Virus record (IMG/VR): IMGVR_UViG_3300034096_000665
Location: 1 to 50,671 of that record
Length of the DNA: 50,671 bases
Source of the DNA: a virus
Reading direction: 5' to 3' (one strand)
The notes below the pieces were generated by a model that made no database searches, had not been told where the DNA came from, and was given only the letters and a program-made list of their open reading frames with translations. The position numbers were made by a program, and so were the translations under genes. This document shows, one piece after another, positions 16,768 to 39,459 of this stretch. The stretch's first letter is position 1. The number at the start of each line of letters is the position of its first letter.

Positions 16768-19722
16768 ATGAGTACTTATCTACAGGGCGTAACCGATTAT
16801 ATACCTCAGTTTCAACCATTTCAACCTGATTTAAACTTTTATGCAAATGCATTGCAGACTAAGCAAAATCAATATGATACAAACTATAAAGCATTAAACA
16901 ATGTTTATGGTCAATATTTTTATGCAGATTTAACTCATGGAGATAACCTTAAGAAAAAAGATGAATTGATTAAAGCAATTGATTTTAATCTTAAACGTGT
17001 TTCTGGTTTAGATTTATCTCTTGAACAAAATGTTACTCAAGCTCAACAAGTATTTAAACCTTTCTATGAAGATAAACATCTTATGAAAGATATGGCTTGG
17101 ACTAAAAATATAAATAGTCAAAAAACATATGGAGCAGGTTTAAAAAATGCTAGAGATGAAAAGTTAAGAGCTCAATATTGGGATGCAGGTGTACGTGCTT
17201 TAGATTATAAAACTGAAGAATTTAAAAATGCTTCTCTTGAAGAAACAATGAATATTGGTAATGCTTCATATACTCCTTATGTTAATGTAATGGAGAAAGC
17301 TCAAAAGATTGCTAAAGATTCAGGTTTATCAGTTGAAACTGTTGATTTTAGTCCTGATGGAAAATGGATTGTTAAAACTAAAAACGGTGAACAATTAATA
17401 CCTAAGTTATCTCATTTATTTGAAGCAACTCTTGGATCTGATCCAGCTGTAATAGATGTATACAAAACTCAAGCATATGTAAATAGAAAAGATTACGCTT
17501 ATTCTAATGCTGCACAATTTGGTGGAGATCAGAATGCTGCTGAAATGAGTTATTTATCTGAAAGCTATAAAATGCTTAAAGCTGAGAATGAAGCAAGATT
17601 AGCTAAACTACAAAACAACAGTAAAGTATATGATAAAAAAGCTGCTGATGTTGAAAAGTCTATAGAAGAAGGTGATGCAACACCAGAATCTAATGACTAT
17701 TTAACAAGATTACAAGAAGCAAAACAAGTAAATAACACACTATTAACAAATACTGATAATAATGTAAATTCATTATCTGAAAGATCAGGTACTTTAACAA
17801 CAAGCACCGGATTTGAAAATCCTTATGGTGATGTTGAATCATTAAGATGGAAAGTTGATAATGCAATGGCATCTAGATTAATGCAAAAAGATCTTGGTGA
17901 AGCAGCTAATGTGTTTGCTTTTAAAGATGCTAAACAAGATATTAATGCAAATCCATATGCAGTACAACAAATAGCTCATCAATATAGAATGCAAGAAGTT
18001 GCTTCTGCTAATGCTAGTAGAGAAAAAGCAGCAAACATTGCACGTCAAACTGAAATTGATAAAGAAAGAGTTGCAACAGGTGCATGGGAATGGGATAGAG
18101 ATCCAAATAGTTCAACATATAATCAAGCAATACCTAGAGATGAAGCTAATTTACTTACTGTAGCTAAAAAAAGTAAAGGTACATCAACTGATATTGTAAA
18201 CTTAAATGAGCAATCAGCTAAATATACAAGTAATCAAATTACTGATAAAGTAGTACCATACGTTACTAACATGCTTGTATCAATTAGAGAATTACAAAAA
18301 CAAGGTAAATTATCTAACAGTGATATAAAAACTATATTTGGTAATACAGGTATGAGTGCAGAAAAATTAAATGCACAATTGCAATCTGATCCTTATAAGT
18401 TAATTACAAAAACATTAGGTACAACTAAGTTAAAACAAATTACAAATGGTTTCCAACAAGTAATTAAACAGAATTATAATAAAGGTATAAAAGGATTTGA
18501 TGCTGTTGGTCAACAAATGAGTAGTTATAACATAGATTTAAATGATTACTATACTTATGTTTCTGACTTACAAAACTGGAGAAAAGAATCTAAAGATGCA
18601 GTTGTAGATTATGTTAAAAGTACTATTGATAAAGATATAAAAGGTTATGTTGATAAGATGTATGATAAAAATGGTAATTTATTATCTGAGTCTGAATTTA
18701 ACAAAATATTTGGTTTTGTATCAAGTAGTCCAAATTCAGAAGTAATACAGGTTGGTAGTCAACCGTTAATGGGTGGATCTGGTAAAGGTTTTAATAGTAC
18801 ACAAGATTACACAAAATCAAAAATGTCACCTGGAAAAAGTGTTAGTCCATATAAAGAACTTAAAAGAGCAATTCACAAAGCATATGGTTCAACTAATGTA
18901 AAGTTTACTTCCGCACCTCCACAATTAACATCTATTGGTCAATTTAAAGATGCAGGATTAACTACTATTGGTGAGCATGGTGTGCAAGTATATCCAGATG
19001 ATAAAACTTCAGCTGGTGCTTTTGGATGGGAAACTTTTAAAAATGATTTTAATAATCTTGATTTTGATGCTGATGCAGATGTATCATTTGTTGGACCTAC
19101 AACAACTGGTGCAAAAAGAAACAAAGAAGGTAAATTATTAATACAAGAAATGTTTAAAGAGACATCTGAACCAGGAGGAAAGTTTAGAGGTTTCAGACTT
19201 GCAGCTCAACCATTAGCACAAAATAAAGCTGGTAAAGGAGCAATGATTATTTATCCAGATTCTGAATGGTTAAAGAAACATACATATACTGAAAGTGGTG
19301 AGGGAGAAAACTATAAAAAAGGTCCTGGTATCATTAGTGCAAAGTTAGCTAGATATATTGCAGAAAATGGTATATCTATTACTGCTGATGAAAGAAAATG
19401 GAAAAACAGTATTTATGAAGCTACAAAAATAACTCCATTTGAAGCACATGTAAATTATAGTAAAGGTCCTGTTACAATTAATGATCCTAATGATGATCTT
19501 AATATGAACAGTATCACATTTGAAAAAGATAATATACTTGGTGGATACAGTTACAATTTTAAATTTAAACAATGGGATCCTCAAAAAAATGCATATATTC
19601 AAAAAGAAGTAGCAGATCATGTTTATACTGGACAAGAATTAGAAAATGCAAGAGTTCTTGCATATAGATCATGGCCAGTATCTAACAAATCAAATAATGA
19701 AATCTTTAACAGTAATAGATAA
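16768..19722 (+). CDS. Cargo-region virion protein (984 aa), function unknown
   Basis: The N-terminus contains DYIPQFQPFQPDLNFYANAL followed by QTKQNQYDTNYKALNNVYGQ, a segment I associate with internal virion proteins of crAss-like and related Bacteroidota phages. Helical, probably coiled regions lie near 255-300 and 385-430. The C-terminal half (about 670-960) is more beta-rich, with WETFKNDFNNLDFDADADV and GGYSYNFKFKQWD. I see no catalytic motif, signal peptide or membrane segment. It has no cysteine in 984 residues. It follows a candidate promoter and overlaps the start of the 2,030-aa gene by one base, so it is probably made with the giant cargo proteins and may bind or chaperone them. 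Confidence 0.5.
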   Translation: MSTYLQGVTDYIPQFQPFQPDLNFYANALQTKQNQYDTNYKALNNVYGQYFYADLTHGDNLKKKDELIKAIDFNLKRVSGLDLSLEQNVTQAQQVFKPFYEDKHLMKDMAWTKNINSQKTYGAGLKNARDEKLRAQYWDAGVRALDYKTEEFKNASLEETMNIGNASYTPYVNVMEKAQKIAKDSGLSVETVDFSPDGKWIVKTKNGEQLIPKLSHLFEATLGSDPAVIDVYKTQAYVNRKDYAYSNAAQFGGDQNAAEMSYLSESYKMLKAENEARLAKLQNNSKVYDKKAADVEKSIEEGDATPESNDYLTRLQEAKQVNNTLLTNTDNNVNSLSERSGTLTTSTGFENPYGDVESLRWKVDNAMASRLMQKDLGEAANVFAFKDAKQDINANPYAVQQIAHQYRMQEVASANASREKAANIARQTEIDKERVATGAWEWDRDPNSSTYNQAIPRDEANLLTVAKKSKGTSTDIVNLNEQSAKYTSNQITDKVVPYVTNMLVSIRELQKQGKLSNSDIKTIFGNTGMSAEKLNAQLQSDPYKLITKTLGTTKLKQITNGFQQVIKQNYNKGIKGFDAVGQQMSSYNIDLNDYYTYVSDLQNWRKESKDAVVDYVKSTIDKDIKGYVDKMYDKNGNLLSESEFNKIFGFVSSSPNSEVIQVGSQPLMGGSGKGFNSTQDYTKSKMSPGKSVSPYKELKRAIHKAYGSTNVKFTSAPPQLTSIGQFKDAGLTTIGEHGVQVYPDDKTSAGAFGWETFKNDFNNLDFDADADVSFVGPTTTGAKRNKEGKLLIQEMFKETSEPGGKFRGFRLAAQPLAQNKAGKGAMIIYPDSEWLKKHTYTESGEGENYKKGPGIISAKLARYIAENGISITADERKWKNSIYEATKITPFEAHVNYSKGPVTINDPNDDLNMNSITFEKDNILGGYSYNFKFKQWDPQKNAYIQKEVADHVYTGQELENARVLAYRSWPVSNKSNNEIFNSNR

Positions 19723-22700
19723 TGGAAAATAATAACTCATTAGATCCACTAGGTCCAGAATTTGGCCGTATTAATGCACCAGCAATTGATTCTAAAAGCT
19801 TAACTCCATTTGAAGGTGATACATTAAAAGATAATAAAATAAATTTTTTTCCTGTTACTGGACCATTATCTTCTACAAATCCAAGTATTGCAATACAAGA
19901 TGCTGTTACTGGACGTGCTCCACGTATACAAAGCAAAAATAATCCAAGAAAAGGGGTAACTGCAAGTCAAGTTGGAGATGCTTTTGCTCAAAACTTTAAA
20001 ATGGAACTTGCAGCAAATAGAGATAGAAATCAATATGCTAAAGTAAATGCATATAATGCTGGTCCATCTGGTAACTCTTTCTATAAAAGATATGCTGCGT
20101 TTGGTCAAAAGAAATTTGATGAGATAGGTTTTTCTCCATTGAGAGATAATGAGGCAATGTATAATGCCAATACATCATGGTCAGATAAGTTTGTTAGAAG
20201 TATGACTTATGGTTTAATACCATTAACAGCAAGAGGATTTATTTCTGGTCCAAAGAGTTTAATAAAAATGATGCAAGGTGATTTTAGTACAGACCTTGAA
20301 GATGCAAGAATAAATGCTGAAGCTAGTGCAATTGGACAAGATACATCAAAAGGCTTAGGAGCATTCTTTAACAACACTGCAATGAGTTTTGGTTATACAG
20401 CAGGTATAATTGCTGAATCAATATTAGAAGAAGTTGCAGGTGCGTTGCTTTCACCATTAACAGGAGGGGGTTCTTTCTTTGCAGCTACAGCAAACAATGC
20501 TAGAAAAATTGGTAAAATAGGTGAAGCAATTGATATGGCAGTAGATGGATACAAAGCTGTTAATCAAACACTTAAGGAAGCAAACAATATTAATGGTGCT
20601 AGAAAAATGTGGAAAGCAGCGGAAAATATTAATGCAAGTAAGATAACTAAGTTTATAAATCCATTTGAAAATACATTTGATGCAATAGTTGGTATAGGTA
20701 AAAATACTGATAACTTAACAGGATTAGCAAGATTATCACAAAGTACAAGTAGAACAGCTGGTGGACTATTTAGAGATGTAAGGAATATCAATATGGCATT
20801 AGCTGAGGCACGTCTTGAAGGTGGTTTAGTAGAAAATGAACTATATGATAAAGCTTATGATGCATTTTATTTAAAAAATAAAAGAGCACCAAATGATGAT
20901 GAGCAATATCAAATGACTAAGACTGCAAAAGAAGCAGGTATGCATACATTAATGTGGAATACAGGTTTAATTCTTGCATCAAATAAAATAGTTATTCCTA
21001 ATTTATTAAAATCAGGAGTATCTAAAAGAGCTTTACAATCTAAACTTGATGATGTATATTCATTTAAAGGTGGTAAAGTAGTACTTGAAAAAACATTTAA
21101 AGAAGGTAAAAAAATTGCTAATGGTACATTTACATATGTAGAAGATTCATTTAAAAACTCACTTAAAGGATTTAAAAAAGCTCCTGTAATGACAACAGCT
21201 AAAATAGCTGGAAAATACCTTAAAGGAAACTTAATGGAGGGTGTACAAGAGAATTTACAAGATGTAATATCCACATCTAATGAAGAATACTATTTAACTG
21301 CATATAAAAATAAAGAATTAGGAGCACATTTATATAACAAGTCTCTTGATTCTTTAATGTACAATGGAGTTAAAAATCAATTTTCAGCTCAAGGTTTTGA
21401 AACATTTTCTTCTGGTTTATTAATGGGATTATTTTCTGGAGGCTTAAATCTTTTAAAAGGTGGATTTGATTATGGATATAATAATACATTTAATAAAGAA
21501 AAGTATCAAGAGTATAAAGAAACAAGAGAGAAACACGGTAAAGAAGTTGCTCAACAGTTAACAGCATTATACAATACTCCATCACAATTCTTTAACTCAA
21601 GAATATTTAATTATGGTACACAAAATAATATCATAACTGAAATAGATGACGCTGATACTAAGAAAGCAAAAGATGAATTAGCTAGAGCATTTGTTACTCA
21701 AGTAACTACTGCATTAAATACTAATACTCTTAATTATTTTAAAGATCATATTGCATCATTTAAAGAGTTAACTCAAGAGGAATATGAGGAAGCATTTGGT
21801 TTTGAAAAAGGTACAGGTACTAATCAACAAGAAAAAATTGATAGCATATTAGCCAATGTTGATTCAGTACAAAAAGCTTATACTTATGCAATGGATAGAT
21901 TTAAAGATCCAATTGATTTAAGTGATTATAAAGAAGGTACACCTGAGTATGAAGATGCTGATATGTTAAAAAATGCATGGAGACAAGGTATAAATAGTTA
22001 TGTTTTTAAAAACCATGCATTTATGAATGCTACTAAGAGAATGACAGATATCTCTGGTAGTATATTAAATAATCCTTCAATGAAAAACATGTCTCAATTA
22101 GACATGAATTTTATACTAGACCCTTCTAATATTGGTAATGAAATAGATTTACTTAATTCAGAAATAGAAACATTAAAGCAAGCTACTGATAAAAAATCTA
22201 AAGATGACTTACTAAAAAAACAAAAAAGAGTAACTGCACTTGAAGACTTTGCTGCTGCTCATAAACAATATGAGTCAAGACCTTCTAAAGTTAAAGTTGC
22301 AAATGCAGTATTTGAAGAAATAAAAAAACAAAACAACTTAGAAGAATTAACTAATGAGCAAAAGCTGCAAATACTAGAAGAAAACAAAGACAAATTAAAA
22401 GAGGTTTTTGGTGAAGAGTTGAGTGATTCTGAAATTGAACACATACTTGATGCAGAAAAAGGTGAGACATTGTTAAATTCTAAATTAGAAATAGCTTACA
22501 AAAACTATTTAAAAAATACAAATGGTATTGATCCATCATATGTATTTGATACTGATATTGATAATAGTTTTGTGACACTTAAACATTATTATGAATTATA
22601 TAAAGAATCAAAACAACTTGTAGAACAAATAAACCTATTACATGATCCTCAAGGATTCATGGATCATATTGATAAAACTCGTGTATGGATGAGTAACATG

Positions 22701-25700
22701 TATAATAATAGACAGGATTATTATATAGATATGGTTAATAAACAAATGGCAGCTCTTGAAAGTAATGAGTTATTAAATAGATTAGCTGACATGAATATTT
22801 TCATAGATCTTGATGAGTTTCAAGACTTTATGGAAAATGGTACACCACCAAAAGAATTCTTTGATCAGACAACTAAACAAGTTGTTCCAATTGGTAGTGA
22901 AAAATATAAAGAATTATTTTTTAAATTATTTCAAGCTAAAGCATTAAGAGAAAAAAATGTAAAACAAGAAACACTTGATGAAAAGTTACAAGTTCAAATT
23001 GATAAGCTTAACGTAGCTGAACAAATAGAACTTGATGCATTAGAAAAAGTTGAAGTAAAAACTAAAGGTAATACTGTTAAAAAAGATGATTTGACAATTA
23101 AAGACATTGCTGTTGCAGTTGCATTAGGTGAATATGTAGATATTACAGATGCTAGTAACGGTAATGTTATCACTCTTTATAGTTCTGAGCAAGGTTTAAG
23201 AAGTAATGATAATGATGGTGACTTAATATCAATTAAAGATGTTACATCTAAATTTTCTCAATTTACTACATATAAGATTGAATTTAAATCTGACCCAGAA
23301 CAAGTAAAAGTTATTAATGAAAAATACAATAAACTTAAAGAAGAAACAATAGCAAAATATAATGCTGAAAAAGAAAAAAATGAGTTAAAGGTATATTCTA
23401 TTAATACACCACTTAACCAATTTCCTAAAGATTTATATAAGCAGTTACAAGATGCATATAACGAATCTGAAGAAGCACAATCAGTAGATACTCTTGATTT
23501 AGAAGATGAAGACATTGAGATAATGTTTTCTAATTTTATATTAAAAAATCCTGTTGCAAAAGAGATTATTGATGCATATAATGCAAAAAATGAAGAGGAA
23601 GTACAAAATGAAAAGTCAGGTGCTATTGATGAGTTTGATTTCCAACAAGGTAAAAAAACTGTTAATACATCTAAGTATACTACTGATCAATTAACTGCAA
23701 TAGTTGCACAATTAAAATTATTAAAAGATGCTGAAAAAGAGATAGTTAAAAAAGAAATCTACTCTACATTGATTAATAAGTTTGAAAAATTAATTGCAAC
23801 ACGTAAAGGAAAAGAGTTTACTCCAGAAGTGCAAGAGATGATCAAAACACTAGAAGAGAAACTACTTGCTCAACAAAAAAATATAGAAAAAATAAATGAG
23901 GACAATTATAAAGTTAAGTCTACAGGTGTATTGCTTGAAAGAGTAACTAACTTTCTAAAAAAACTTAAAAAAGGTTTATTTAAATATAAAGGTGTAGCTA
24001 CAATTGCAAAAGCATTTAATAATTCAATTGATAGAATTGGTTTAAATAAAGAAAGTATAGATGACTTTGTAAATGAGTTAGATGACACTTTATTTAAATT
24101 AAAAAAATCTGGATACACAAAAGATACAGTTGATGGTATTAATTCAACATCTGATATACTTAGAACTTATTTAAATAACATATTAGAGAATAAAGAGAAC
24201 CAACCTGTTAAAAGTAAAAAAGCTTTATTACTTGATATACAAAAATTTATAGCTGATAATGTATATGTTTATACTCAGGTAGCTGGTACATACTTAGATG
24301 AACAACTAAGAAACTTTTTTACTCCTGGTAGTGTACCAAAGTTTGATGAGTCTAAAATTACAAGAGAAGCATATGATGAATTATTTGGTGCAGATAGTTT
24401 TATTAGACCTTTAAAGAAAAAAATAGACTCAGGTGAATTATATGTATTAGCAAATAACATTAAAGTATTTGATGAAGAAACTGGTGTAGCTGGTGAGATA
24501 GATTTACTACTTATTGATAAAGAAGGTAAACTACAGATAATAGATTTTAAAACAGGTGATCAAGAAAAGTGGAATGGTTTTGTTAATAAAACTGAATCTG
24601 GGTTAAATAAGCTTGATGAATATACTTTACAACAATACACATATGCAAGATTGTTGAAAAAAATGACAGGTTTAGATGCTGAAATAAATATCATGCCTAT
24701 TGAGGTTACAATCAATCAAAAAGAGTATAGAATCTATTCAGTTAATCAACCAACTAATACAAAATTACTTGGTCTTGATAAGTGGTATTTTAAACTAGAT
24801 CCAAATTTTAATGATATTAAATCTAGAATAGATGCTAAGATTAAGATTGAGAAAAAAGATACAGGTAAACAAACACCACCTCCTGCAAGTAATCAATCTG
24901 ATATTGAAGCTAAAAAAGCTGATATAGAAAGAAGAAGACAAGAAGATTTAAACTTCAATAAAATTACAAAATCAAGTACAGGAATAAGTGCTCCTGCTTT
25001 GTGGAGTAGTTTAGCAGAAATTCAACAAAAGATAGAAAATGATTTCAAAGGAAATCCTTCACTTTCAATTTCTACATACATTAAAAACAATAAAGCTGTC
25101 TCCAAATACACACAAGAAAAAATAAATGAATTTAATCTAGCTTTAGAAAATGTAATCAATGCTAAATATGATGCAGAACTTGCTGCTTTAGAAAAGAGTA
25201 CTACAGAAACTACTGATCCTATATCAGATGAAGTGTATGACAACTTTATTGATTATGGTGTTGTACCACAAGAAATAATAAACTATATTGCTGATAAAAT
25301 AAAAAATAAAGAGCAGTTATCTGAAAGAGAGACAGCAATAGCTACTTATAAAACAGCAGAGATAAATAAAAGATTAGAAGAATTATACAAGTTAGAGCAA
25401 GAAAAAATCACAAAAGTATCTGAGCTTACACTTAAAAAAGGTGATACAGTAATTGTAGAAAACACAATCTTTGGTAAAAATGAAGGTATTGTTTTTGCAA
25501 ATAAAGGTGCTGTAATTACTGTACTTAAATCTACTGAAAAAGGTGTAACTTTTACATATAATAAAAGACAAAAAACCGTACCTTTGTCTGAGTTAGATAA
25601 GCATGTTACTACTATGCCTATTGCAAAAGCTAAAGAAGCTCAAAAGGCAGATGAAAAACTTGATGAAATAGATAAAGATATCATTGCAGAATCAAGTAAA

Positions 25701-25814
25701 ATTGTAAAAGATTTTATTAAAAAAGATGAAGCAATGACTAATGCACAAACAAAAGCTGATAATAAAAAATTAGCTGATATTTACAATGATTTATTAAATG
25801 ATTTAGATTGTTAA
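19722..25814 (+). CDS. Giant cargo protein with PD-(D/E)XK nuclease domain
   Basis: A 2,030-aa protein immediately upstream of the RNA polymerase gene. Residues 1-130 are polar. Residues 130-300 contain amphipathic, Gly/Ala-rich stretches (GLIPLTARGF, GAFFNNTAMSFGYTAGIIAE, EVAGALLSPLTGGG) that could contact membrane. Long charged helical regions cover about 600-1550. Residues 1560-1680 hold a RecB/Cas4-type nuclease core: GEIDLLLID with D1594, IIDFKTGD with D1608 and K1610, and the trailing helix LQQYTYARLL, so all three motifs are intact. A small beta domain (KKGDTVIVENTIFG and onward) lies near 1905-1965, then a Lys/Glu-rich tail. The only cysteine is the very last residue. In crAss-like phages the proteins at this position are virion cargo, so this nuclease may be injected with the polymerase. 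Confidence 0.7.
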   Translation: MENNNSLDPLGPEFGRINAPAIDSKSLTPFEGDTLKDNKINFFPVTGPLSSTNPSIAIQDAVTGRAPRIQSKNNPRKGVTASQVGDAFAQNFKMELAANRDRNQYAKVNAYNAGPSGNSFYKRYAAFGQKKFDEIGFSPLRDNEAMYNANTSWSDKFVRSMTYGLIPLTARGFISGPKSLIKMMQGDFSTDLEDARINAEASAIGQDTSKGLGAFFNNTAMSFGYTAGIIAESILEEVAGALLSPLTGGGSFFAATANNARKIGKIGEAIDMAVDGYKAVNQTLKEANNINGARKMWKAAENINASKITKFINPFENTFDAIVGIGKNTDNLTGLARLSQSTSRTAGGLFRDVRNINMALAEARLEGGLVENELYDKAYDAFYLKNKRAPNDDEQYQMTKTAKEAGMHTLMWNTGLILASNKIVIPNLLKSGVSKRALQSKLDDVYSFKGGKVVLEKTFKEGKKIANGTFTYVEDSFKNSLKGFKKAPVMTTAKIAGKYLKGNLMEGVQENLQDVISTSNEEYYLTAYKNKELGAHLYNKSLDSLMYNGVKNQFSAQGFETFSSGLLMGLFSGGLNLLKGGFDYGYNNTFNKEKYQEYKETREKHGKEVAQQLTALYNTPSQFFNSRIFNYGTQNNIITEIDDADTKKAKDELARAFVTQVTTALNTNTLNYFKDHIASFKELTQEEYEEAFGFEKGTGTNQQEKIDSILANVDSVQKAYTYAMDRFKDPIDLSDYKEGTPEYEDADMLKNAWRQGINSYVFKNHAFMNATKRMTDISGSILNNPSMKNMSQLDMNFILDPSNIGNEIDLLNSEIETLKQATDKKSKDDLLKKQKRVTALEDFAAAHKQYESRPSKVKVANAVFEEIKKQNNLEELTNEQKLQILEENKDKLKEVFGEELSDSEIEHILDAEKGETLLNSKLEIAYKNYLKNTNGIDPSYVFDTDIDNSFVTLKHYYELYKESKQLVEQINLLHDPQGFMDHIDKTRVWMSNMYNNRQDYYIDMVNKQMAALESNELLNRLADMNIFIDLDEFQDFMENGTPPKEFFDQTTKQVVPIGSEKYKELFFKLFQAKALREKNVKQETLDEKLQVQIDKLNVAEQIELDALEKVEVKTKGNTVKKDDLTIKDIAVAVALGEYVDITDASNGNVITLYSSEQGLRSNDNDGDLISIKDVTSKFSQFTTYKIEFKSDPEQVKVINEKYNKLKEETIAKYNAEKEKNELKVYSINTPLNQFPKDLYKQLQDAYNESEEAQSVDTLDLEDEDIEIMFSNFILKNPVAKEIIDAYNAKNEEEVQNEKSGAIDEFDFQQGKKTVNTSKYTTDQLTAIVAQLKLLKDAEKEIVKKEIYSTLINKFEKLIATRKGKEFTPEVQEMIKTLEEKLLAQQKNIEKINEDNYKVKSTGVLLERVTNFLKKLKKGLFKYKGVATIAKAFNNSIDRIGLNKESIDDFVNELDDTLFKLKKSGYTKDTVDGINSTSDILRTYLNNILENKENQPVKSKKALLLDIQKFIADNVYVYTQVAGTYLDEQLRNFFTPGSVPKFDESKITREAYDELFGADSFIRPLKKKIDSGELYVLANNIKVFDEETGVAGEIDLLLIDKEGKLQIIDFKTGDQEKWNGFVNKTESGLNKLDEYTLQQYTYARLLKKMTGLDAEINIMPIEVTINQKEYRIYSVNQPTNTKLLGLDKWYFKLDPNFNDIKSRIDAKIKIEKKDTGKQTPPPASNQSDIEAKKADIERRRQEDLNFNKITKSSTGISAPALWSSLAEIQQKIENDFKGNPSLSISTYIKNNKAVSKYTQEKINEFNLALENVINAKYDAELAALEKSTTETTDPISDEVYDNFIDYGVVPQEIINYIADKIKNKEQLSERETAIATYKTAEINKRLEELYKLEQEKITKVSELTLKKGDTVIVENTIFGKNEGIVFANKGAVITVLKSTEKGVTFTYNKRQKTVPLSELDKHVTTMPIAKAKEAQKADEKLDEIDKDIIAESSKIVKDFIKKDEAMTNAQTKADNKKLADIYNDLLNDLDC

Positions 25815-31800: not shown

Positions 31801-34800
31801 GGAGAGCAAAAATCATTAAAATCTGATATAGCATTTACTCCAAACACCATCTATTTAGAAAATCTTAAAAATGTTACTGCAGTTCCTGATAAATATAAAT
31901 CTAAAACAGTATTTGCAACTCAGTTAAGAAAACTTATACTTGAAGGTTTATATGAAAATGGTGAGATAGTAAATAAAGATTATACATCATATGTTAAAGC
32001 ATATGAACAAGCTGTTGATGATTATACAGATATCCTTAAAAAAGAATTACTTGAGGAAATTGGATATGAAATAGTTAATGGTAAATATGTAAGCGGTGAT
32101 GTATCTAAATTCATGGATGTAGTTCAGAGAGAACTTGAAAGAAAAGATATTCCTGAGCACTTAATTGATTATATTCAAGTAGGTACAAATAATAAGATTA
32201 CAAAAGATTTATCATTACACTTACTTTCAGGTGATATTGAAAAAATGATAACATCACTTGTTGAAAAAAGAATAGTAAAACAAAAAGTAAAAGGTGAAGC
32301 CTTAGTACAAGTAGCAAGTGCTATGTCTAATGGATTGTGGGATTCAGGTTTTAAATTTGATAAAGCTAATACTGCAGATATAGAGAAATATTTAGGTAGT
32401 AATAACTTACCATTTTACTATCCAGGTGAAGATGGTAAAACAAATGCAATGAAAGTTGCTATTGCATTACAAGGTGATTTTACTAATCTTTTAAAACTTA
32501 AACACAATGATGGAGAAGTCATTGGTACAAGAGAGAGATTAAATGAGATGATCAAGAATGATGAGTGGTTGAATAAAGGTAATAACCGTAAAGCAATCAC
32601 AATGACAGCTGTAAGGATTCCAGTACAAGGATTAAACTCTATGGAGTTTATGGAAGTGTATGAGTTCTTGGATCCAGCTGCAGGTAATATTATTATTCCT
32701 CCATCAGAAATTGTTGCTAAGTCAGGAGCCGATTTTGACGTTGATAAGCTTACTACATTTATGCCTAACATAGATGCAAGAGGTCAATATGTTGAGTCTG
32801 GAATGGATACAGAAACATTAGATAGACTTATTGCTGCTTCTAAAAAGAAAGGTGATAAAGCTGAAATGACTAGACTTATTAAGTTACAAAAAGCTGCTTT
32901 AGAAAATAAATTAATTGATTCAATTAGAGGTATTTTACAATTACCAGATAACTATGCTACATTAGTAAGACCTAATGATACTTACTTAATGAAAGATATA
33001 GCTGATGATTTAGTTGACTTGTTACCTGAATATGGTAGATATAAAACTATTAGCCCTACAAATGTATTAGAGGTAGGTTATAACCTACATAAACATGAGG
33101 CAAATATGATTGGTAAAGATGTATTAGGTATTATTGCACTTGAAAATGCATTAAATCCATTATACACATCATTAGGTGCAGCTCTTCCAAAAACATATAA
33201 AGGTTTAGTAAAAAATAAAATCACTAAAAAGTATGAAGAAGATCCAACTGTGGATTATGAAATGAGATTACTACTCAACCATAATAAAATGGATGATGGA
33301 AGAATTTCTTTATCTGGTATAAACAGTGAAGATGGTCAAGATAAAATTGCGGATTTAATATCACACTTGATGAATGGATCTGTGGATGTTGAGAAAGATG
33401 CGTGGATATTCTTTATTCAAGCTAATAAAGAAATAGTACCTATATTATTAAACTTACTTAAAGCAGGTGTACCAAAAAGAGAAGCCGTATACTTTGTATC
33501 TCAACCATTAGTAAAAGAATATGCAAGACAGCAAAGATTATATGGTAGTGCATTTGCTAATCTTATTGGTAAAAATACAGAAGCAGATGAAAGTGCAAAA
33601 TATAATGCTCTTCAAGCTACATTAAGACAAACAGATATCAGTAATGCAATTTATGATGCAAATGAAACTAAGTTAAATAAAGTACTAAATAGTGCATCTC
33701 CTAATACAGAAATAAGTGTAAGAGTAGCATTTGAACAAAAACCTTTTAAAACTACAATTAAAGAATTAAAAGATGATATTAAAAACTATAGAATAAATTT
33801 ATTTGAGATTGAGAACATATATGACAAAAAGGGTTCATTATTTAAAGGTATTGTAGTTAATCCATTTGATAAATTTTATCACCCATTATCAAATGCAAAT
33901 TATAAAGATGTTGCTTTAGCTGCAACTAAAGGTATTGATAAATTTAACTTATCTGATTTAGAAAAACTAGTTAAAACTAATGACACAACAAGTAAAACAG
34001 CTATTGCTGCATTCTTGCATTATTTAGAATATGAAAAACAAATAAAAGGTATTGCTGATCTTAAAAGACAATCAAATCCAGATACTACTACTTCTAAAAC
34101 TATTCAAGAGATAATACAAAAACGTCTTGGACTAGATATGTTAGCTGAGTCATCAAAATTAGAAACACAATTAGTAAGTAAATTAAGAAATCAATCTATA
34201 TTAGGTTCTTTCTTTGATAATACACTTACTGAAGACTTGGTTGAGCCATTGTTTCCATTAACTGATGATAAAAGAGTATCTGAGTATTTATTAAAATACC
34301 TTAAAGAAAACGATGTGCCTGCTAAATTTGGTGAAGGTGCTGATGGTGTAACTAATTTTATATCATCTTTTAAAAATGCAATGGTTAATTTTATATACCA
34401 AAATAAATTAAACCAGATAGTAACTAGAGGTGAATCATTTCCTGGTGTACCAGAGTCTTTTACATCAGTAGATCATCAAAAATTTGTAGTTGACTTCATG
34501 GGTATGCTAAGTGAAAATACTCACTTAAAAGAGTTATACTCTGTACTAGAACAAATAACTGACGTACCTGTAAACATATATGATACAAAAACTAAAAAAG
34601 TTAAAAGTCAAATTGCTGTTTTAACATTAAATAATAAAGCTGTAGTAAAAGGGGCTTTAGCTCAAGCATATCACCAAAACTTAATTGACTTAGCTGATGA
34701 TAATGTTATCAAAGTAAAAGACCCGGTTAAGAATAAAGAGATATCTGACATGTTTAAAATGTTACCTCTTATGTCAATTCTTCAAAATGGAGTAGGTAAT

Positions 34801-35397
34801 ACTAAATATGGATTAAGTTATGTCTTACCTGATACTACTTACTTTGAAATCATTGAACCAGCATCAAGGAAGTTTATTCAAAACGGTATGACTACTAGTA
34901 TGTTTGATAGAATTGCTAGAATGATGATAGCTAATGACCCAAATGTAAATAATTATATTGATGAAGCATTTGTAGTTAAACCTACTCAACCTACAGTACC
35001 GGCTAAGATTACTACTCAACAAGTAAGTGAAGCACCAGTATCTGAAGGTGAACCAGATGGACAAACAGGAGAAGTGGAAGTTCAAGAACAAGTCCCAGAC
35101 AGAACTATTAAAGTACATGATTTTTCTATTGTTGTAAAACCTGATGGTAAAATGTATTATGCTAATGGTAATGATTTAACTGATCAAACTACAATTAATA
35201 AAGCAAAAATCAAGATGGAATATGAAGATGGTAAACTAAGAATGTCTAACTTTAACAAGTCTAATTATTATGTGCTTTCAGACAATACAATTCTTGGTTC
35301 AGGTGCAACTAATTTAGGTAAAGAATCAGTTAATAATGCTGAAACTAAACAGATAATATTAGATAGAGCAACACCATATAAAAAATCTTGTAATTAA
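25819..35397 (+). CDS. Giant virion RNA polymerase with N-terminal zincin-like domain
   Basis: A 3,192-aa protein, the largest here and longer than phi14:2 gp66 (about 2,180 aa). The catalytic motif is D2305-F-D-V-D2309 in PPSEIVAKSGADFDVDKL, preceded by VRIPVQGLNSMEFMEVYEFL. This matches the double-psi beta-barrel active site of crAss-like RNA polymerases, where three Asp bind magnesium. Upstream conserved segments include KLQHFGHLANTSLPVNAMHK. Residues 840-844 (HEAWH in DLYHEAWHGF), followed by EVEEILAEEY (876-885), form an apparent gluzincin metallopeptidase motif. A coiled segment lies near 350-375, and an acidic low-complexity linker comes before a small C-terminal domain. Only two cysteines exist, C5 and C3191. 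Known homologues are packaged and injected to transcribe early genes. Confidence 0.85.
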   Translation: MKLNCSLSETQVENLYMAVYKEMLLAKEAGKAFDPEPFMINLFEKIQKKKDVNVASTFLQVVPTLMKQARDQEALKGLDFSLDANQKLIDEFRDTDNGLLKTLNYFRPTATLKDLMVNVSIQKNIINDPANVTDEEFDEIINDPFRWQANDAFSSTMQELEPRKPEDKDKQGKEKKDPNKITIYKTIRRIRLEAKQETALSPLTYQGVNIYLRPVMLSTLNATETLDATTVAHIIRSNSMVDQGTADPNVTQAKDIVVLVLSDQSGNAIHFDNQGSITSKENGGQPVYQFLRDVRNVEGSDKLRVTDIYGIEDRILSPADIIERAANQVKMSVESWVKSQGTTYEKMLESVEKQQQEQFEELKKLRDKVRAGDNTILLDITGISAGIADIFGIGESATLNSLLNEFKIPYQEMQIQILPGDENSMAAVYVDGVFYKIDRPNLKEEYIKQIAAVLLDPSLSNKQKNDFYLQFTSNAITTQRRKLFVNYNDTNNTLTVLYRTGPGKTTELILSDPAAEQIIIDSLLKETIKDNGKTFATNLNFNDDLLKGEKTFYTYDTVNKKLVPTSYKEFLYNLNLNITSTSEKTTDKKGETTNPYFVFQVSNSFIESLRQSEKEVNADTRSLIRRTKDKLVTKLKKNNKLAGKIRSAKALTDATFYMTIDGVLVEGRYNKGVSSKNIKIDDDVTFIVADEQYGKKLYRDVISIYDANNNKIGVVSETDFQAGETQRTPEQVKEAAIEADKEYTSKENVSTPEDNTGIDDLLSMLPRSSKLPNNVTQEEIDAAKEWWENSPLSKLIKLEHMANIVNSDVYARFIIAGKRLEDTAIQLDTATGSSAVDLYHEAWHGFSQLFLTKKQKTKLYAETRKRLNKYDLSPMEVEEILAEEYREYAKNPKTVGDAPVRNTIFRRIWNFIKALFGKRSTQEDLFERLFFAGKNPKLLNKFTPLVDNAMFNKLNRARGVMNTETKELVLNYQDSLKVSNQLDSALSEFIDKVYNKREAASANNVKDAAGNLVRSNKSGTIYILANDKAREVAYKEIKKEFQKKLDNFNADLENTSEEDFNKRAVLNDKIRIINTTLENWDAAIIFHKEHSTFDLIKQKYIELSEEEEELDNDVSAPENVDSSEAVAKSDVGAKSLLQLAEKETLYILKSLFKQVDGKEVTGPLGFPELADFSKTWNIVTKVIGGEKDPSKMYDKLVAAGEMYPELRQLINTKLPNPRSIDTIEEFNIKAAFWQDFKKTQLRYIQLTVDKDAETGQYKSEVTDASIEFKNVINKFKSDFNSSAETKFIGKTADNKSVLKIDKVVDAFSNVDTVQKQIEFANALGIDLQDLKSIKDELGKNQKKYGIPYLFGITKAVHALQKDPKATQAQKDFIDKFLANPINALYGKIPEGIYPKTESEKAVLQNLAKLQSKFGTNYSSFSVLNAEKNLVNEFIEDNTVSMIVDAINTVANGRELWTNSKYKYMSYLNPTINGFTEHSKLLNSIFEAEENTWDRRKGGKLDLVMISGTQMVPTNEGANTTSLDVHSKYIQELNMMLKLGFQEFMRHASKSSSFGMKSAKGIVGGPGKPKSNLYVDIEQFTPNGDADQYAVNNIFLGYIQAELIRIQKIRSNRDEYKKYAGYNREIKSADGKTVIGMAGEFFTAFDNVLTDKTKNEIIDKVKDGNLIDYLKSDLELKKDITEQITKYFNDQTYVNQKDFQKAKWIDPALRNKLKAYELSAEEEEKMLVKAYTMNAWIHNFETASLIYGDIVQYNHAKQEMHKRNTGSTSGGRGFLTDKYTQMFINSNLIAGTSYGSKLAELSQFGPDYNVFNYNGTYNTAIAQDIKRDSVYVKHIEKALREDYEKRGLVKEEIDKRVAIEIDKYNKMEEGDGQGFITFDAYRTLKMTEKSWGADQEKLFQDIINGKPVKAEDITHFFPVYKLQHFGHLANTSLPVNAMHKFALMPLIPSVIKGSDLESLHHQMMKGNIQYFTFQTGSKVGSVTSDGKADKIYDDNGEQKSLKSDIAFTPNTIYLENLKNVTAVPDKYKSKTVFATQLRKLILEGLYENGEIVNKDYTSYVKAYEQAVDDYTDILKKELLEEIGYEIVNGKYVSGDVSKFMDVVQRELERKDIPEHLIDYIQVGTNNKITKDLSLHLLSGDIEKMITSLVEKRIVKQKVKGEALVQVASAMSNGLWDSGFKFDKANTADIEKYLGSNNLPFYYPGEDGKTNAMKVAIALQGDFTNLLKLKHNDGEVIGTRERLNEMIKNDEWLNKGNNRKAITMTAVRIPVQGLNSMEFMEVYEFLDPAAGNIIIPPSEIVAKSGADFDVDKLTTFMPNIDARGQYVESGMDTETLDRLIAASKKKGDKAEMTRLIKLQKAALENKLIDSIRGILQLPDNYATLVRPNDTYLMKDIADDLVDLLPEYGRYKTISPTNVLEVGYNLHKHEANMIGKDVLGIIALENALNPLYTSLGAALPKTYKGLVKNKITKKYEEDPTVDYEMRLLLNHNKMDDGRISLSGINSEDGQDKIADLISHLMNGSVDVEKDAWIFFIQANKEIVPILLNLLKAGVPKREAVYFVSQPLVKEYARQQRLYGSAFANLIGKNTEADESAKYNALQATLRQTDISNAIYDANETKLNKVLNSASPNTEISVRVAFEQKPFKTTIKELKDDIKNYRINLFEIENIYDKKGSLFKGIVVNPFDKFYHPLSNANYKDVALAATKGIDKFNLSDLEKLVKTNDTTSKTAIAAFLHYLEYEKQIKGIADLKRQSNPDTTTSKTIQEIIQKRLGLDMLAESSKLETQLVSKLRNQSILGSFFDNTLTEDLVEPLFPLTDDKRVSEYLLKYLKENDVPAKFGEGADGVTNFISSFKNAMVNFIYQNKLNQIVTRGESFPGVPESFTSVDHQKFVVDFMGMLSENTHLKELYSVLEQITDVPVNIYDTKTKKVKSQIAVLTLNNKAVVKGALAQAYHQNLIDLADDNVIKVKDPVKNKEISDMFKMLPLMSILQNGVGNTKYGLSYVLPDTTYFEIIEPASRKFIQNGMTTSMFDRIARMMIANDPNVNNYIDEAFVVKPTQPTVPAKITTQQVSEAPVSEGEPDGQTGEVEVQEQVPDRTIKVHDFSIVVKPDGKMYYANGNDLTDQTTINKAKIKMEYEDGKLRMSNFNKSNYYVLSDNTILGSGATNLGKESVNNAETKQIILDRATPYKKSCN

Positions 35398-35410
35398 AAA
35401 TATTAATACT

Positions 35411-36139
35411 ATGGCCTGCATAATAGCAATAAAAGAAGAATTAAATAATAGTATTGATAAAATACTAGGAGGATATAGAGATGCAACACATTCATACAAA
35501 GAAGCTCAAAGGCGGTCAAAAGAAATAAATGACCGCTGGAGTAACTTATCTAGAGTAGATAGATTTGGTGATGACAGAGCTAAAGTTGATATATCTGATA
35601 GAGTATTTGAACAAGTAGCTAATGAAGCTTTAGAAGTGCAAAATCAACTTGATGATGAACTTATTAGTGAGCTTGATACTACTGAAGAAATTAAAGATGT
35701 TGTTGAGTTACCTGAATCAAAAAAAGAAACTACAGTAACAGAAGAAAATATAGAAGAAGAGTATCCGATTCAAACTGCATATAAAGAAGAACTGGAAAAA
35801 ACCGGTTCTAAACCTAAAGTTATTTTAATTAGAGGTACTAAAGCAATACTAAATGATAATGGTACATATGATATCATTGATCCAAGTAATAATTTTATAT
35901 TACAAAAAAATATTGATTTAGATACTATGCAAATTGTGCCATCTCCTGATTCTTTTGTACCTTATGATAATAAAGTATTTGATGATTTTGTAAGAAACAC
36001 TATGATGCATCCTTATACTGAAGCGTTACTTGCTGAAAAAGGTATTGATATTAATGATATATTTGATCAGTTAGGTACAATATCTACAAAAGAGGAATTA
36101 AGTAATATAATAGGTAAAATATTAAAGAATATATGTTAA
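35411..36139 (+). CDS. Small cargo-block protein with Cys at both ends (242 aa)
   Basis: No recognised domain. The N-terminal 75 residues are helical and charged (KEAQRRSKEINDRWSNLSRV). An acidic Glu/Thr/Val-rich linker covers about 85-125, and a short predicted beta unit (PKVILIRGTKAILNDNGTYD) and helices follow. It has two cysteines only, C3 and C242, the last residue. It lies 13 nt after the RNA polymerase gene and overlaps the next gene by 7 nt. Note that the final TGT codon shares bases with the downstream ATG. Its place between two giant cargo proteins suggests an adaptor or a split-off piece of one of them. Whether it is packaged is unknown. Confidence 0.55.
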   Translation: MACIIAIKEELNNSIDKILGGYRDATHSYKEAQRRSKEINDRWSNLSRVDRFGDDRAKVDISDRVFEQVANEALEVQNQLDDELISELDTTEEIKDVVELPESKKETTVTEENIEEEYPIQTAYKEELEKTGSKPKVILIRGTKAILNDNGTYDIIDPSNNFILQKNIDLDTMQIVPSPDSFVPYDNKVFDDFVRNTMMHPYTEALLAEKGIDINDIFDQLGTISTKEELSNIIGKILKNIC

Positions 36140-39100
36140 GAATAAGCTGCCCAATTAAAACTAGTAAACAATGGATTGATTTACTAGAAAAATGTAATGG
36201 AAATGAGCAAGAAGCTTATGAAAAATGGTATGAACCAAAAAATGGTTATATTTTAAATGAAGAGATAAACTACATACCAGAAGAACTTGAAGAATTAAAA
36301 CCTGAAGATAGAAAAGATGATGTATCAAAAATGGTTGATGATATTAGAATTTATTTAAGACAACAACTAAATGCTCTTAAAAAACAAAAAATACCTAATC
36401 AATCATATAAAGAGAAAAAACAAGAGAATCTTATTAAAGAGTTTGAAGTTCTAGATGGTATTGATGCTATAACAATGTTTATTAAAAGCACATATGAGGA
36501 GTCTCAAAAGATTTATAAAAGAATGCAAGTTGTCATTAATAAAGTTGATGATGGTACTCCAGAGTTTAAAAAAAATCTTATTAAAGAATTAACTGCTATT
36601 AATACATTTGTTAATGGTTATAACATATTAGATGAGATAAGTAAAGCTGACATTTATAATTATTTTTCTTCTGAATCAGATGAAGTGCAAGAAGGTGAGA
36701 AAAAATCAATTAAAAAAATGTTAAAAGAAGCTATTGAATTAAGAGACTCAGTTAAACAAAAATATATTCAAAATGGTATACCTTTAATGGCCTCATTTTT
36801 ACTTAATTATAAATCATTAAATATTGATAAACAAGTAGATGAAGAGATTGAAGGTTTAATGAAAAGACTTGTTGAAGAAAAACAATCACCAAAACCTAAT
36901 GCAAAAGAGATTGAAAGATTAACTGAAAGAATAAAAAAGTTTCAGTCTTTTACACTTACTCAACAATCAATGGAAGACTTGTTAAAGTTTGCTTCTGAAG
37001 ATGAAGGTTTACTAGATTTTTGGTTTAACCCATTAATATCTTCTAAAGATGCTTCTCTAGGTTTATTTGCAAGAGTAATTAAAACTGAATTAGAAGATGC
37101 AAGATTAAAAGATGATGCTATATTAGAAATTGCTGGTAAAGAATTTGATAAATATAATGCTGCTACTTCTGCAAATAGAGATAATCCTGCAAAATTTAAT
37201 GAAGGTATTTATGAAGATATACTGATTCATACTAAAGATAAACAAGGTAATAAAGTTGTTGCTAAGAGAAAAGCTTTTGTACAGAAATATGATGTTAGTA
37301 AGTATGAAGAAGCAGAACGCGCAGCATGGCGTGGTCCAGAATTAAGTGAAAATCCTACAAGAGAAGAGTTAAAAGCAAAAACTGACTATGATGCAAATAA
37401 AAAAACTTATATGGCTGCATGGTATGCTAAAAATGCTCAAAAGAAAAGTGATGCAGAAATAAATAAAATTATTGCAGAAAAAGAAATGCTTAAAGCTTCT
37501 GGTGTATTAACACAACAGGAGTATGATGATTGGTATAAATCTGTTTTACTTATTAAAAAAGATGGTACAAAGGTATACATGAAAGAATTTAGTGAGCCTT
37601 CAGCTGACTATATTAATAGTAAATGGACAGATTTATATGATAGTAATGATAAACCTAAAAATGCAAAAGGTGAGTATCATGAGTATTTGTTAAATTTATA
37701 TCTTAACGCACAAGAAAAGTTACCAGATGCTCAGAAACCAGGATATGTATTACCGTCCATACATAAACAAGATAAAGAAAGAAGAAATGTAAAAGGTATA
37801 CTAAAAGATAAATGGAAAGATGCAACATCAATAAGAGCAGATGATACTAGATTTGGAGTTGCTGATTTCTCTGAAGGAGATAAAAAATTCTTACCTGTTT
37901 ATTATACTCAAGAAATGGATGCTGATGAAGTAAGTACAGACTTAATAAGATCTGTATTACTTTTTAGCTCAATGGCTAATAGATATCAAGCATTAAATAA
38001 TATTGAACCAGAAATTAATCTATTCAAAGTAATTATTGGTGATAGAGATGTAGCTGAAACAAATTCTAAAGGTGTTGCAAAACTTGATTCATTTGCAAAT
38101 AAATTAGGTATTAAATCTTTTATAAAAAAAGGAGAAGAGAGTTATTCTCAAAGACATGTTGATGCCTTTATTGATATGATAGTTTTTAATGAAACTCAAA
38201 AAGCTCAAGAAATATTTGGATTCTCTGCTGCTAAAATTACAAATGGATTAATGGGTTATTCTGCATTAACAAGTATTGCAGCTGATTTATTAAAAGGTGT
38301 TGCAAACAACTTACAAGGTAATATCCAATTGATCATTGAAGCAAACTCAGCTGAGTTTTTTAGCAAAAAAGATTTAAGAATTGGTAAAGGTTATTATGCA
38401 AAACATTTAGCTGACTTTTTAGGAGACTTTGGTAAAACAACTCCTCAATCTTTAGTTGGTAGATTAATAAGACTATATGATCCAATGCAGGGTAACTTTA
38501 AAGATCAGTATGGTAGAAATGTATCACCAAGTACATTTGCTAAGTTAATGAGGACTGATACATTATTCTTTAACCAGCATTTTGGTGAGCATGAGATTCA
38601 AGTATCAAGCATGTTTGCTTTAATGAATGCAACTAAGGTGATTGATAAAAACACTGGAGAAGAAATATCTTTACTTGATGCTTATACAAAATATGGTACT
38701 ACTGATATTGAGGAAAATACTGATTTTACAAAGTCTAAAAAACTTGATTTACAAAACAGAATACATGCAATAAGTAAAAAATTACACGGGGTTTATAATG
38801 AATTTGATAAAGGTACAGCACAAAGATATTCAGTAGGTAGATTAGTATTAATGTATAGAAAGCATTTAGTACCTGGTTATAAAAGAAGATGGGGTAAACT
38901 ACAATCTGATCAAGAATTAGGTAGTGCAGTTGAGGGTTATTATATGACTTTTTATCATACAATGATAAAAGACTTGTTTAAAATGAAATTAAATGTAATG
39001 AAAAACTGGTCATCATATACACCTTTTGAAAAAGCACAGATTAAAAGAACCTTAGCAGAAGCTGCAATTATCTTAGGTACTACAACATTAATACTTATTA

Positions 39101-39459
39101 TGACTAAAATGTTTGGTGGAGATGATGATGATGAAAACAGTTATGCTTATAACTTTATGTTATATGAATTAACAAGGATGAATTCTGAAACAGCATCATA
39201 TTTATCACCTCCAGATGCATACCGTACAATTAAATCTCCTACAGCAATGGTAAGTACAGTGGAGAGAATGACAAAATTTATTAATCAATTTTTCTTAACA
39301 TGGGATCCTGAGAAGCTAAGTTATCAAAGAAGAGAAGGTGTATGGAATAAAGGTGATAATAAATCTTGGGCATACTTTTTAAAACTAATTGGTTTCTCAG
39401 GTTACAACTTTAGTCCAGAAGCAGCTGTTAAATCATTCAATGCTACATTATTAAAATAA
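36133..39459 (+). CDS. Large cargo protein with C-terminal membrane segment (1,108 aa)
   Basis: This is the third large protein of the crAss-like transcription/cargo cluster. The N-terminus has SCPIKTSKQWIDLLEKCNG and EQEAYEKWYE, a C-P-x-x-S-x-x-W...L pattern I associate with this family. Most of the protein is helical and charged. Near 725-760 (MGYSALTSIAADLLKGVANN) and again at about 975-994 (AAIILGTTTLILIMTKMF) there are hydrophobic stretches. The second is a good single membrane helix and is followed by an acidic GGDDDDENS segment. C6 and C21 are the only cysteines. A membrane-spanning role during ejection is attractive: it could help cargo cross the host inner membrane. No catalytic motif is visible. 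Confidence 0.6.
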   Translation: MLRISCPIKTSKQWIDLLEKCNGNEQEAYEKWYEPKNGYILNEEINYIPEELEELKPEDRKDDVSKMVDDIRIYLRQQLNALKKQKIPNQSYKEKKQENLIKEFEVLDGIDAITMFIKSTYEESQKIYKRMQVVINKVDDGTPEFKKNLIKELTAINTFVNGYNILDEISKADIYNYFSSESDEVQEGEKKSIKKMLKEAIELRDSVKQKYIQNGIPLMASFLLNYKSLNIDKQVDEEIEGLMKRLVEEKQSPKPNAKEIERLTERIKKFQSFTLTQQSMEDLLKFASEDEGLLDFWFNPLISSKDASLGLFARVIKTELEDARLKDDAILEIAGKEFDKYNAATSANRDNPAKFNEGIYEDILIHTKDKQGNKVVAKRKAFVQKYDVSKYEEAERAAWRGPELSENPTREELKAKTDYDANKKTYMAAWYAKNAQKKSDAEINKIIAEKEMLKASGVLTQQEYDDWYKSVLLIKKDGTKVYMKEFSEPSADYINSKWTDLYDSNDKPKNAKGEYHEYLLNLYLNAQEKLPDAQKPGYVLPSIHKQDKERRNVKGILKDKWKDATSIRADDTRFGVADFSEGDKKFLPVYYTQEMDADEVSTDLIRSVLLFSSMANRYQALNNIEPEINLFKVIIGDRDVAETNSKGVAKLDSFANKLGIKSFIKKGEESYSQRHVDAFIDMIVFNETQKAQEIFGFSAAKITNGLMGYSALTSIAADLLKGVANNLQGNIQLIIEANSAEFFSKKDLRIGKGYYAKHLADFLGDFGKTTPQSLVGRLIRLYDPMQGNFKDQYGRNVSPSTFAKLMRTDTLFFNQHFGEHEIQVSSMFALMNATKVIDKNTGEEISLLDAYTKYGTTDIEENTDFTKSKKLDLQNRIHAISKKLHGVYNEFDKGTAQRYSVGRLVLMYRKHLVPGYKRRWGKLQSDQELGSAVEGYYMTFYHTMIKDLFKMKLNVMKNWSSYTPFEKAQIKRTLAEAAIILGTTTLILIMTKMFGGDDDDENSYAYNFMLYELTRMNSETASYLSPPDAYRTIKSPTAMVSTVERMTKFINQFFLTWDPEKLSYQRREGVWNKGDNKSWAYFLKLIGFSGYNFSPEAAVKSFNATLLK

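Follow-up and report, generated by a model that had tools for sequence, protein, structure and literature searches.

Why should four consecutive giant proteins of a virus carry cysteine (Cys) only at their ends? The question arises from a viral sequence of 50,671 nt (IMG/VR record IMGVR_UViG_3300034096_000665), analysed at full length and called here the window. Its relevant features are the following, the four proteins from position 19722 onward being referred to as the chain.

3477-8777: muzzle-like gene, upstream of the next three proteins.
8777..16702, plus strand: three Cys-free proteins (1016, 734 and 866 aa), between the muzzle-like gene and the chain.
16768..19722, plus strand: 984-aa upstream cargo-type protein at the crAss001 gp46 position, Cys-free and outside the chain.
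19722..25814, plus strand: 2030-aa cargo protein, counterpart of gp47 (crAss001) and g067 (phi14:2), first link.
25809..25811, plus strand: codon of Cys2030, the final residue of the first link.
25819..35397, plus strand: 3192-aa catalytic virion RNA polymerase, counterpart of gp50 and g066, middle link.
25831..25833, plus strand: codon of Cys5 of the 3192-aa protein, putative partner of Cys2030 in the preceding protein.
35389..35391, plus strand: codon of Cys3191 of the 3192-aa protein, putative partner of Cys3 in the 242-aa protein.
35411..36139, plus strand: 242-aa extra link, with Cys at both ends (C3 and C242).
35417..35419, plus strand: codon of Cys3 of the 242-aa link.
36134..36136, plus strand: codon of Cys242 of the 242-aa link, putative partner of Cys6 in the 1108-aa protein.
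36133..39459, plus strand: 1108-aa cargo protein, counterpart of gp49 (crAss001) and g065 (phi14:2), last link.
36148..36150, plus strand: codon of Cys6 of the last link.

A sequence-only reading of the window had reported seven Cys in the four proteins, all terminal, and our recount agrees exactly, with zero others in 6,572 residues. Its chance figure of roughly 1e-11 was also about right: with a limit of 21 residues from any of the eight ends we obtain 7e-12 for all seven Cys, and with a limit of 6 residues 1e-12 for six or more of the seven. Cys occurs only at the C-terminus of the 2030-aa protein (C2030), at both ends of the 3192-aa protein (C5 and C3191) and of the 242-aa protein (C3 and C242), and at C6 and C21 of the 1108-aa protein. 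The last of these is private, since Ser stands in its place in the nearest relative (L007, 88% identical), where C6 is the sole Cys; the N-terminal C6 is the conserved one. All three junctions have Cys near both facing ends, and the outer ends of the series (the N-terminus of the 2030-aa protein and the C-terminus of the 1108-aa protein) have none. The absence of Cys extends upstream through the 1016-, 734-, 866- and 984-aa cargo-type proteins (8777-19722); minus-strand genes of the same window contain 0.88% Cys.

Judged by homology, the four proteins are the virion RNA-polymerase cargo of crAss-like phages, known as gp47-gp50-gp49 in crAss001 and g067-g066-g065 in phi14:2. The 3192-aa protein matches phi14:2 g066 (tblastn E 9e-16) and carries the DxDxD catalytic motif (GADFDVDK at residue 2303). 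The 1108-aa protein matches gp49 (E 5e-52) and the 2030-aa protein gp47 (E 2e-08), and by E values and domain HMMs these partners stand in the same order as in the reference module. Homology, order and motif are thus shared with known Crassvirales cargo (crAss001, phi14:2; catalytic subunit PDB 6vr4). Pfam and PHROGs searches with the chain proteins returned no useful family, and a PDB search with the 242-aa protein returned no useful match; an AlphaFold model of this link (pTM 0.34) is too weak to place its two ends. In four relatives (L005, L006, L009 and L010) the RNA polymerase and the C-terminal half of this link make up one fused protein, and there the junction Cys are absent.

The phi14:2 counterparts are annotated as virion-carried and ejected. 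In crAss001 the cargo proteins were found in the virion by mass spectrometry, with an estimated six copies of each polymerase protein; the polymerase cargo of Crassvirales is ejected ahead of the DNA, and that of crAss001 must partially unfold to pass constrictions below 50 Å (PMC10172136).

Comparison of homologues, which the sequence-only reading had proposed as a test of terminal-Cys conservation, came out in its favour: the Cys are kept across relatives and pairs are present at split junctions. Sixteen relatives with 38-83% identity retain terminal-only Cys despite lengths from 3,192 to 4,449 aa. Among reference phages (negative positions count from the C-terminus), phi14:2 has Cys at -1 of g067, 3 and -2 of g066 and 3 of g065; crAss001, with gp47 on the opposite strand, has them at -3 of gp47, 5 and -9 of gp50 (with others in between) and 5 of gp49; and Fpv1 has a fused 4401-aa protein with Cys at -2, followed by one with Cys at 3. 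DAC15 was a further reference phage counted for the junction rule. Suoliviridae have gp47 and gp50 fused and keep the gp50|gp49 pair; Intestiviridae have gp50 and gp49 fused and keep the gp47|gp50 pair. A partial case is csAssE-Sib, with a 2208-aa gp47-type protein (Cys at -1) and a 752-aa linker (5 and -2); its gp49-type gene, whose start is unclear, is some 9 kb distant and lacks an N-terminal Cys. The junction Cys of the polymerase lie at residues 3-6 of the N-terminus and no more than 9 residues from the C-terminus.

We then classified 255 loci for gene architecture, blind to Cys. Where gp47 and gp50 are split, Cys occurs on both sides in 117 of 126 junctions (raw count), against 0/46 where they are fused; for gp50|gp49 the figures are 177 of 185 (raw count) and 0/36. 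Of 314 control junctions taken from these loci, 11 are flanked by Cys on both sides. Extra cuts in the chain bring an extra Cys pair, and every extra piece has Cys at both ends. On a tree the architecture changes eight times at gp47|gp50 and six times at gp50|gp49, giving phylogenetically independent contrasts of 8-0 and 5-0 for the Cys pair with split genes; presence of an extra link changes nine times. The head-to-tail pairing proposed from the window alone could be followed into fused lineages: pairs are lost where genes are fused, arise where new splits occur and do not mark the outer ends. Found across Crassvirales and beyond, the terminal-Cys pattern is, in the sequences surveyed, a general rule and not a local oddity.

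The partners are suggested by joint loss, as fusion removes a C-terminal Cys together with the N-terminal Cys of the next protein; each C-terminus would thus pair with the next N-terminus. An intramolecular ring in the two-Cys links finds no support in the same evidence, this co-removal being invariable.

The outer ends bear on the idea, also raised from the window, that the terminal Cys serves each cargo protein as a tag, recognised in packaging or proteolytic processing. Every chain member in the window does have Cys near its ends. However, a tag would mark the outer ends too and survive full fusion, and the outer ends carry Cys in 0/43 and 0/163 cases; among the eight full fusions (5,005-5,677 aa) none has a terminal Cys and six have no Cys whatsoever. 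Other cargo (gp45- and gp46-type proteins, the 984-aa protein and others) has no terminal Cys, and the two sides of a junction change together. We therefore set the tag aside, giving it almost no credence.

Equally hard to credit is that the cargo is simply depleted of Cys, the terminal residues being remnants or a side effect of start signals that overlap stop signals. Aquatic-type lineages do have nearly Cys-free polymerases (67 Cys at internal positions over 538,688 aa), and one window junction overlaps. The virion RNA polymerase of N4 (3,500 aa), likewise giant, ejected and Cys-free, resembles the fully fused crAss-like forms; it is, however, a single polypeptide of unrelated catalytic fold and so has no junctions to link. 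The window polymerase, of the DxDxD two-barrel type and in several pieces, falls outside the N4-like class of one Cys-free, T7-type-related chain. Depletion was rejected as the whole explanation by the gut-type lineages, which have 777 internal Cys in 256,547 aa and yet keep the terminal pairs; the earlier expectation that relatives would lack internal Cys thus fails in these lineages while that of retained terminal pairs stands. Judged from these counts, a low internal Cys content is a trait in its own right, belonging to other lineages that are mostly aquatic-type.

Overlap was rejected as a cause as well. Most junctions have no start/stop overlap and the distances between genes vary. The pair persists with gp47 on the other strand, to which an overlap constraint cannot apply, and where ferritin-like or endonuclease genes unrelated to the chain have been inserted, the pair spans them. 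In the window, C242 had been suspected of being constrained by overlap with the next ATG, but in L002 and L003 that ATG lies 19 nt downstream and the Cys is kept.

Since the Cys stand at facing ends and are gone on fusion, it is probable that cleavable sulfur bonds link each protein to the next, end to end. The reading we consider likely is that head-to-tail disulfides turn the separate cargo proteins into one linear thread, ejected single file and released by the reducing cytoplasm. In the window, C2030 of the 2030-aa protein would bond to C5 of the 3192-aa protein, C3191 of the latter to C3 of the 242-aa link, and C242 to C6 of the 1108-aa protein. A disulfide would substitute for the peptide bond at each junction, so that between two and five chains, each made separately, would act as one unbranched polypeptide. 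The linked cargo would leave the narrow tail in fixed order and equal stoichiometry; the host cytoplasm would cleave the links, and the freed subunits would then fold and transcribe. We infer from the sequence pattern each of these elements: the disulfide, its presence in the virion, the single thread and release by reduction. Somewhat less assured, though still favoured, is the broader notion of a redox-reversible polyprotein in crAss-like and related phages, in which terminal disulfides formed after assembly make one chain of ~5,000-7,000 residues that is threaded into the host and cut in the cytoplasm, the disulfide being evolutionarily interchangeable with a peptide bond.

Junction disulfides might instead staple the virion RNA polymerase subunits together, to stabilise the quaternary structure or fix the stoichiometry, and play no part in threading. 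Three of the proteins are annotated as polymerase-associated, and the protein ends must lie close together because they are fused in some lineages. A staple could, however, occupy any interface site, yet essentially all junction Cys lie within 9 residues of the very end; the folded complex could not pass the tail (PMC10172136); and in phi17:2 and the Leptolyngbya phage Lbo-JY46 the rule is obeyed by proteins of the gp47 and gp49 types, with no detectable catalytic subunit in the chain. We regard the staple as unlikely.

Gut members inhabit a reducing lumen, have many internal Cys and keep their pairs, which is a point against a disulfide thread; therefore, if the bond does not form there as well, the pair must have some other chemistry. 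Metal bridging, or a thioether or small-molecule linkage, would accord with two Cys per junction kept in reducing gut environments. But no other conserved residue, be it His, Asp or further Cys, was found around the junction Cys, two ligands are few for Zn, and other parts of the crAss001 particle, its tail included, are already known to contain disulfides (PMC10172136); such chemistries seem to us distinctly improbable.

The known crAss001 disulfides that connect different virion proteins (tail barrel, fibre hubs, gp57 dimer; PMC10172136) brace a rigid shell and tail, whereas the window Cys sit at the termini of cargo chains, which have to unfold and exit; the putative cargo chain would be linear and head-to-tail and should be reversible.

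Covalent joining of separate subunits after assembly is familiar from the isopeptide chainmail of the HK97 capsid. There the bonds are permanent and lie in the shell; they do not run end to end, are not reversible by redox and do not give way to gene fusion. We found no earlier report of the terminal-Cys rule in the open-access literature searched, a set that does not include the primary phi14:2 gp66 paper; the main texts of the structural atlas and of the 2023 Crassvirales review do not mention the rule, nor does the word 'cysteine' appear in them.

Among the viruses of the human gut the crAss-like phages rank first in abundance, and the rule bears on the way in which phages pass folded protein, hundreds of kilodaltons of it and in a set order, through a narrow tail. 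It leads from sequence to a concrete claim on the state of the cargo, one covalent thread with named bond partners. If true, this would be a new way of making and unmaking a polyprotein, and a natural design for reversible protein delivery.

The rule is also of use in annotation: in published as well as metagenomic records it brought to light wrongly placed starts, introns, frameshifts and reassigned stop codons. All raw exceptions were traced to one of these, several after the fact through other frames, starts or codes, except L162 and L241, whose Cys are 24 and 32 residues from the end. Frameshifts lie in A-runs near the start in L003 and L302 and within a fused gene in L294. The start was picked too far upstream in L114, and in L105 the annotated start is 32 codons too early, with MSC following. 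TAG is read as Gln in L137 and L228, TGA as Trp in L138, and L224 is fused once TAG is taken as Gln. In L020, L118, L149, L156 and L214 an intron or endonuclease interrupts the gene, and the true C-terminal part carries the Cys.

At 19722-39459 the window, a 50,671-base virus record, encodes four consecutive cargo proteins whose only Cys residues are C2030 of the 2030-aa protein, C5 and C3191 of the 3192-aa protein, C3 and C242 of the 242-aa protein, and C6 and C21 of the 1108-aa protein. The sequence-only reading had Cys confined to the ends of these proteins and proposed head-to-tail disulfides; its counts were exact on recounting. The probability of such placement by chance in the four proteins is ~1e-11 to 1e-12, a single-genome statistic that is far outweighed by the comparative evidence. 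The 2030-aa protein matches crAss001 gp47; the 3192-aa protein matches g066, the catalytic virion RNA polymerase of Cellulophaga phage phi14:2, and contains the DFDVD motif; for the 1108-aa protein the matches are crAss001 gp49 and phi14:2 g065. A structural atlas found gp47, gp49 and gp50 in crAss001 virions, at an estimated six or so copies each, argued that they need partial unfolding to pass constrictions < 50 Å, and described disulfides in the tail (PMC10172136).

The pattern is kept in sixteen relative loci (38-83% identity), with Cys at the C-terminus only of the gp47-type protein, at both ends of the polymerase and of the 242-aa-type link, and at the N-terminus of the gp49-type protein; internal Cys is nearly absent despite lengths that differ by over a thousand residues. 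The second Cys of the 1108-aa protein, C21, lacks conservation among close relatives. In four loci (L005, L006, L009 and L010) the polymerase and the C-terminal half of the 242-aa protein form one fused chain (34% identity to the L005 fusion, E 8e-16), and the junction Cys between these two are gone. Reference phages agree (Cys positions in parentheses, negative when counted from the C-terminus): phi14:2 g067 (-1), g066 (3, -2) and g065 (3); crAss001 gp47 (-3, gene on the opposite strand), gp50 (5, -1079, -9) and gp49 (5); phi17:2 gp039 (-1), gp038 (4, -2) and gp036 (3); and Fpv1, in which gp34 (3, -136) comes after a fusion protein of 4401 aa (-2). DAC15 and cr111 are also consistent. Suoliviridae, with gp47 and gp50 fused, retain the gp50|gp49 pair, while Intestiviridae, including the original crAssphage, with gp50 and gp49 fused, retain the gp47|gp50 pair. 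Each pair is thus lost separately with its own junction, which indicates that the bonding partners would be the C-terminus of one protein and the N-terminus of the next. The original crAssphage also has an upstream 857-aa cargo-type protein (L103:588-3161) with a C-terminal Cys (-2), the next protein having no N-terminal partner.

For a larger comparison, 300 loci from four IMG/VR scans with catalytic-domain alignments (best 80 per scan), close relatives and reference genomes were reduced at 90% identity to 255. Junctions were called split or fused blind to Cys, using domain models of the gp47 N-terminal and gp49 C-terminal parts, and in raw counts a terminal Cys was one within 15 residues of the end. 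This comparison of homologues, which the sequence-only reading had suggested should include fused-gene lineages, found terminal Cys kept at split junctions and gone at fusions, so that the pattern generalises beyond the window. Raw counts of Cys on both sides were 117/126 at split gp47|gp50 junctions and 0/46 at fused ones, and 177/185 and 0/36, respectively, at gp50|gp49; control junctions of the same loci gave 11/314. The outer ends lack Cys (gp47 N-terminus 0/43, gp49 C-terminus 0/163), and where all three are a single protein of 5,005-5,677 aa none of the eight has a terminal Cys and six are entirely Cys-free. On a tree of the polymerase catalytic region, architecture changed 8 times at gp47|gp50, 6 times at gp50|gp49 and 9 times in extra-link presence. 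Phylogenetically independent pairs went in the predicted direction 8-0 and 5-0 (the latter alone too few for significance, p 0.06), or 13-0 combined.

Every raw exception was inspected individually, and by these post hoc readings no genuine counter-example is left in the 255-locus set. Near-start frameshifts explain L003 and L302, a frameshift within a fused gene explains L294, and a start chosen too far upstream explains L114; in crAss002 (L105:12088-12190) the conserved gp33 start is probably the MSC at residue 33, the annotation being 32 codons too early. TAG is read as Gln in L137, L228 and L224, and TGA as Trp in L138; on this crass-like contig the cargo genes (1613 aa and > 3400 aa) are open only in that code, TAG-to-Gln loci being the commoner. 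In L162 and L241 the Cys stands 24 and 32 residues, respectively, before the end. In cr108_1 (L020), L118, L149, L156 and L214 an intron or endonuclease interrupts the gene; the Cys is on the true C-terminal part and the interruptions themselves have no Cys pair. Outside the locus set, csAssE-Sib follows the rule only partly.

Cys marks both ends of every extra piece (165-1167 aa) in the polymerase-gp49 interval (window group, L057, L063, L071, L074, L082, L086, L097, L101 and L182), and L097 has five chain pieces with four junction pairs; L078 has one extra piece upstream. Inserted unrelated genes lack the terminal pair, and pairing skips over them (ferritin-like in L139, L235, L238 and L256, LAGLIDADG in L118). 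An iron or peroxide protein in the cargo operon is unexpected and may be relevant to redox conditions. Interruptions of the polymerase gene, at or adjoining the catalytic DxDxD motif, occur in several gut crass-like phages, three times with an endonuclease-type ORF; the interrupting sequence itself has no Cys pair.

Inserted genes and interruptions (coordinates within each comparison locus; ferritin-like stands for ferritin-like/rubrerythrin-family, PF00210, 163-167 aa, with the polymerase gene on one side and the gp49-type gene on the other)
L139:14306-14797, ferritin-like gene
L235:14965-15462, ferritin-like gene
L238:8017-8520, ferritin-like gene
L256:14452-14949, ferritin-like gene
L020:28409-28718, polymerase-gene interruption
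L118:11632-12531, polymerase-gene interruption, LAGLIDADG confirmed
L156:11947-12877, polymerase-gene interruption
L214:12475-13570, polymerase-gene interruption

The polymerase Cys lie at residue 3-6 and 1-9 residues from the end, encoded mostly by TGT and in some by TGC, with no other conserved residues around the junction Cys. With bonding at the extreme ends the resulting thread has no branches; stapling folded subunits together would require no such placement. In phages phi17:2 and csAssE-Sib and a cyanobacterial phage (L304 for the cyanobacterial one; L021 and L305/L306 for the others), gp47- and gp49-type cargo proteins are encoded, and no catalytic crAss-like polymerase could be detected in the interval separating them. 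Since phi17:2 and the Leptolyngbya phage Lbo-JY46 (L304:12355-25261; 1552 aa (-1) and 2748 aa (4), Cys otherwise absent) follow the rule with no detectable catalytic subunit in the chain, it belongs to the cargo and not to the polymerase as an enzyme.

Near-absence of internal Cys is seen in many lineages, cultured aquatic phages included (67 in 538,688 aa of polymerase), but not in gut-type lineages, where internal Cys is normal (777 in 256,547 aa); the groups were divided by this count itself and their habitat labels are based on reference phages only. Terminal pairs are kept in both groups, and the two traits should be kept apart. Avoidance of internal Cys would fit the prevention of wrong bonds under strong oxidation. 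Phage N4 likewise has a Cys-free virion RNA polymerase, made as one chain of 3,500 aa.

The most economical reading of these sequence comparisons, which amount to repeated natural experiments and support the earlier structural interpretation, is that a disulfide joins the facing ends of neighbouring cargo proteins. The bond would be made upon virion exposure to an oxidising environment, the linked cargo would leave as a single thread in fixed order, and the host cytoplasm would reduce the bonds. In gut phages such a bond would have to arise and persist within a reducing lumen. The predicted structure of the 242-aa link was a poor model, too weak for an end-to-end distance. The terminal Cys rule is a general one, and no report of it turned up in the literature searched; the word 'cysteine' is absent from the main text of the crAss001 atlas (PMC10172136) and of a 2023 Crassvirales review (PMC10136315).

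Elsewhere in the window, a 340-aa protein at 9-1031, with zero matches in Pfam and PHROGs, has nine Cys within its first 73 residues and zero thereafter.
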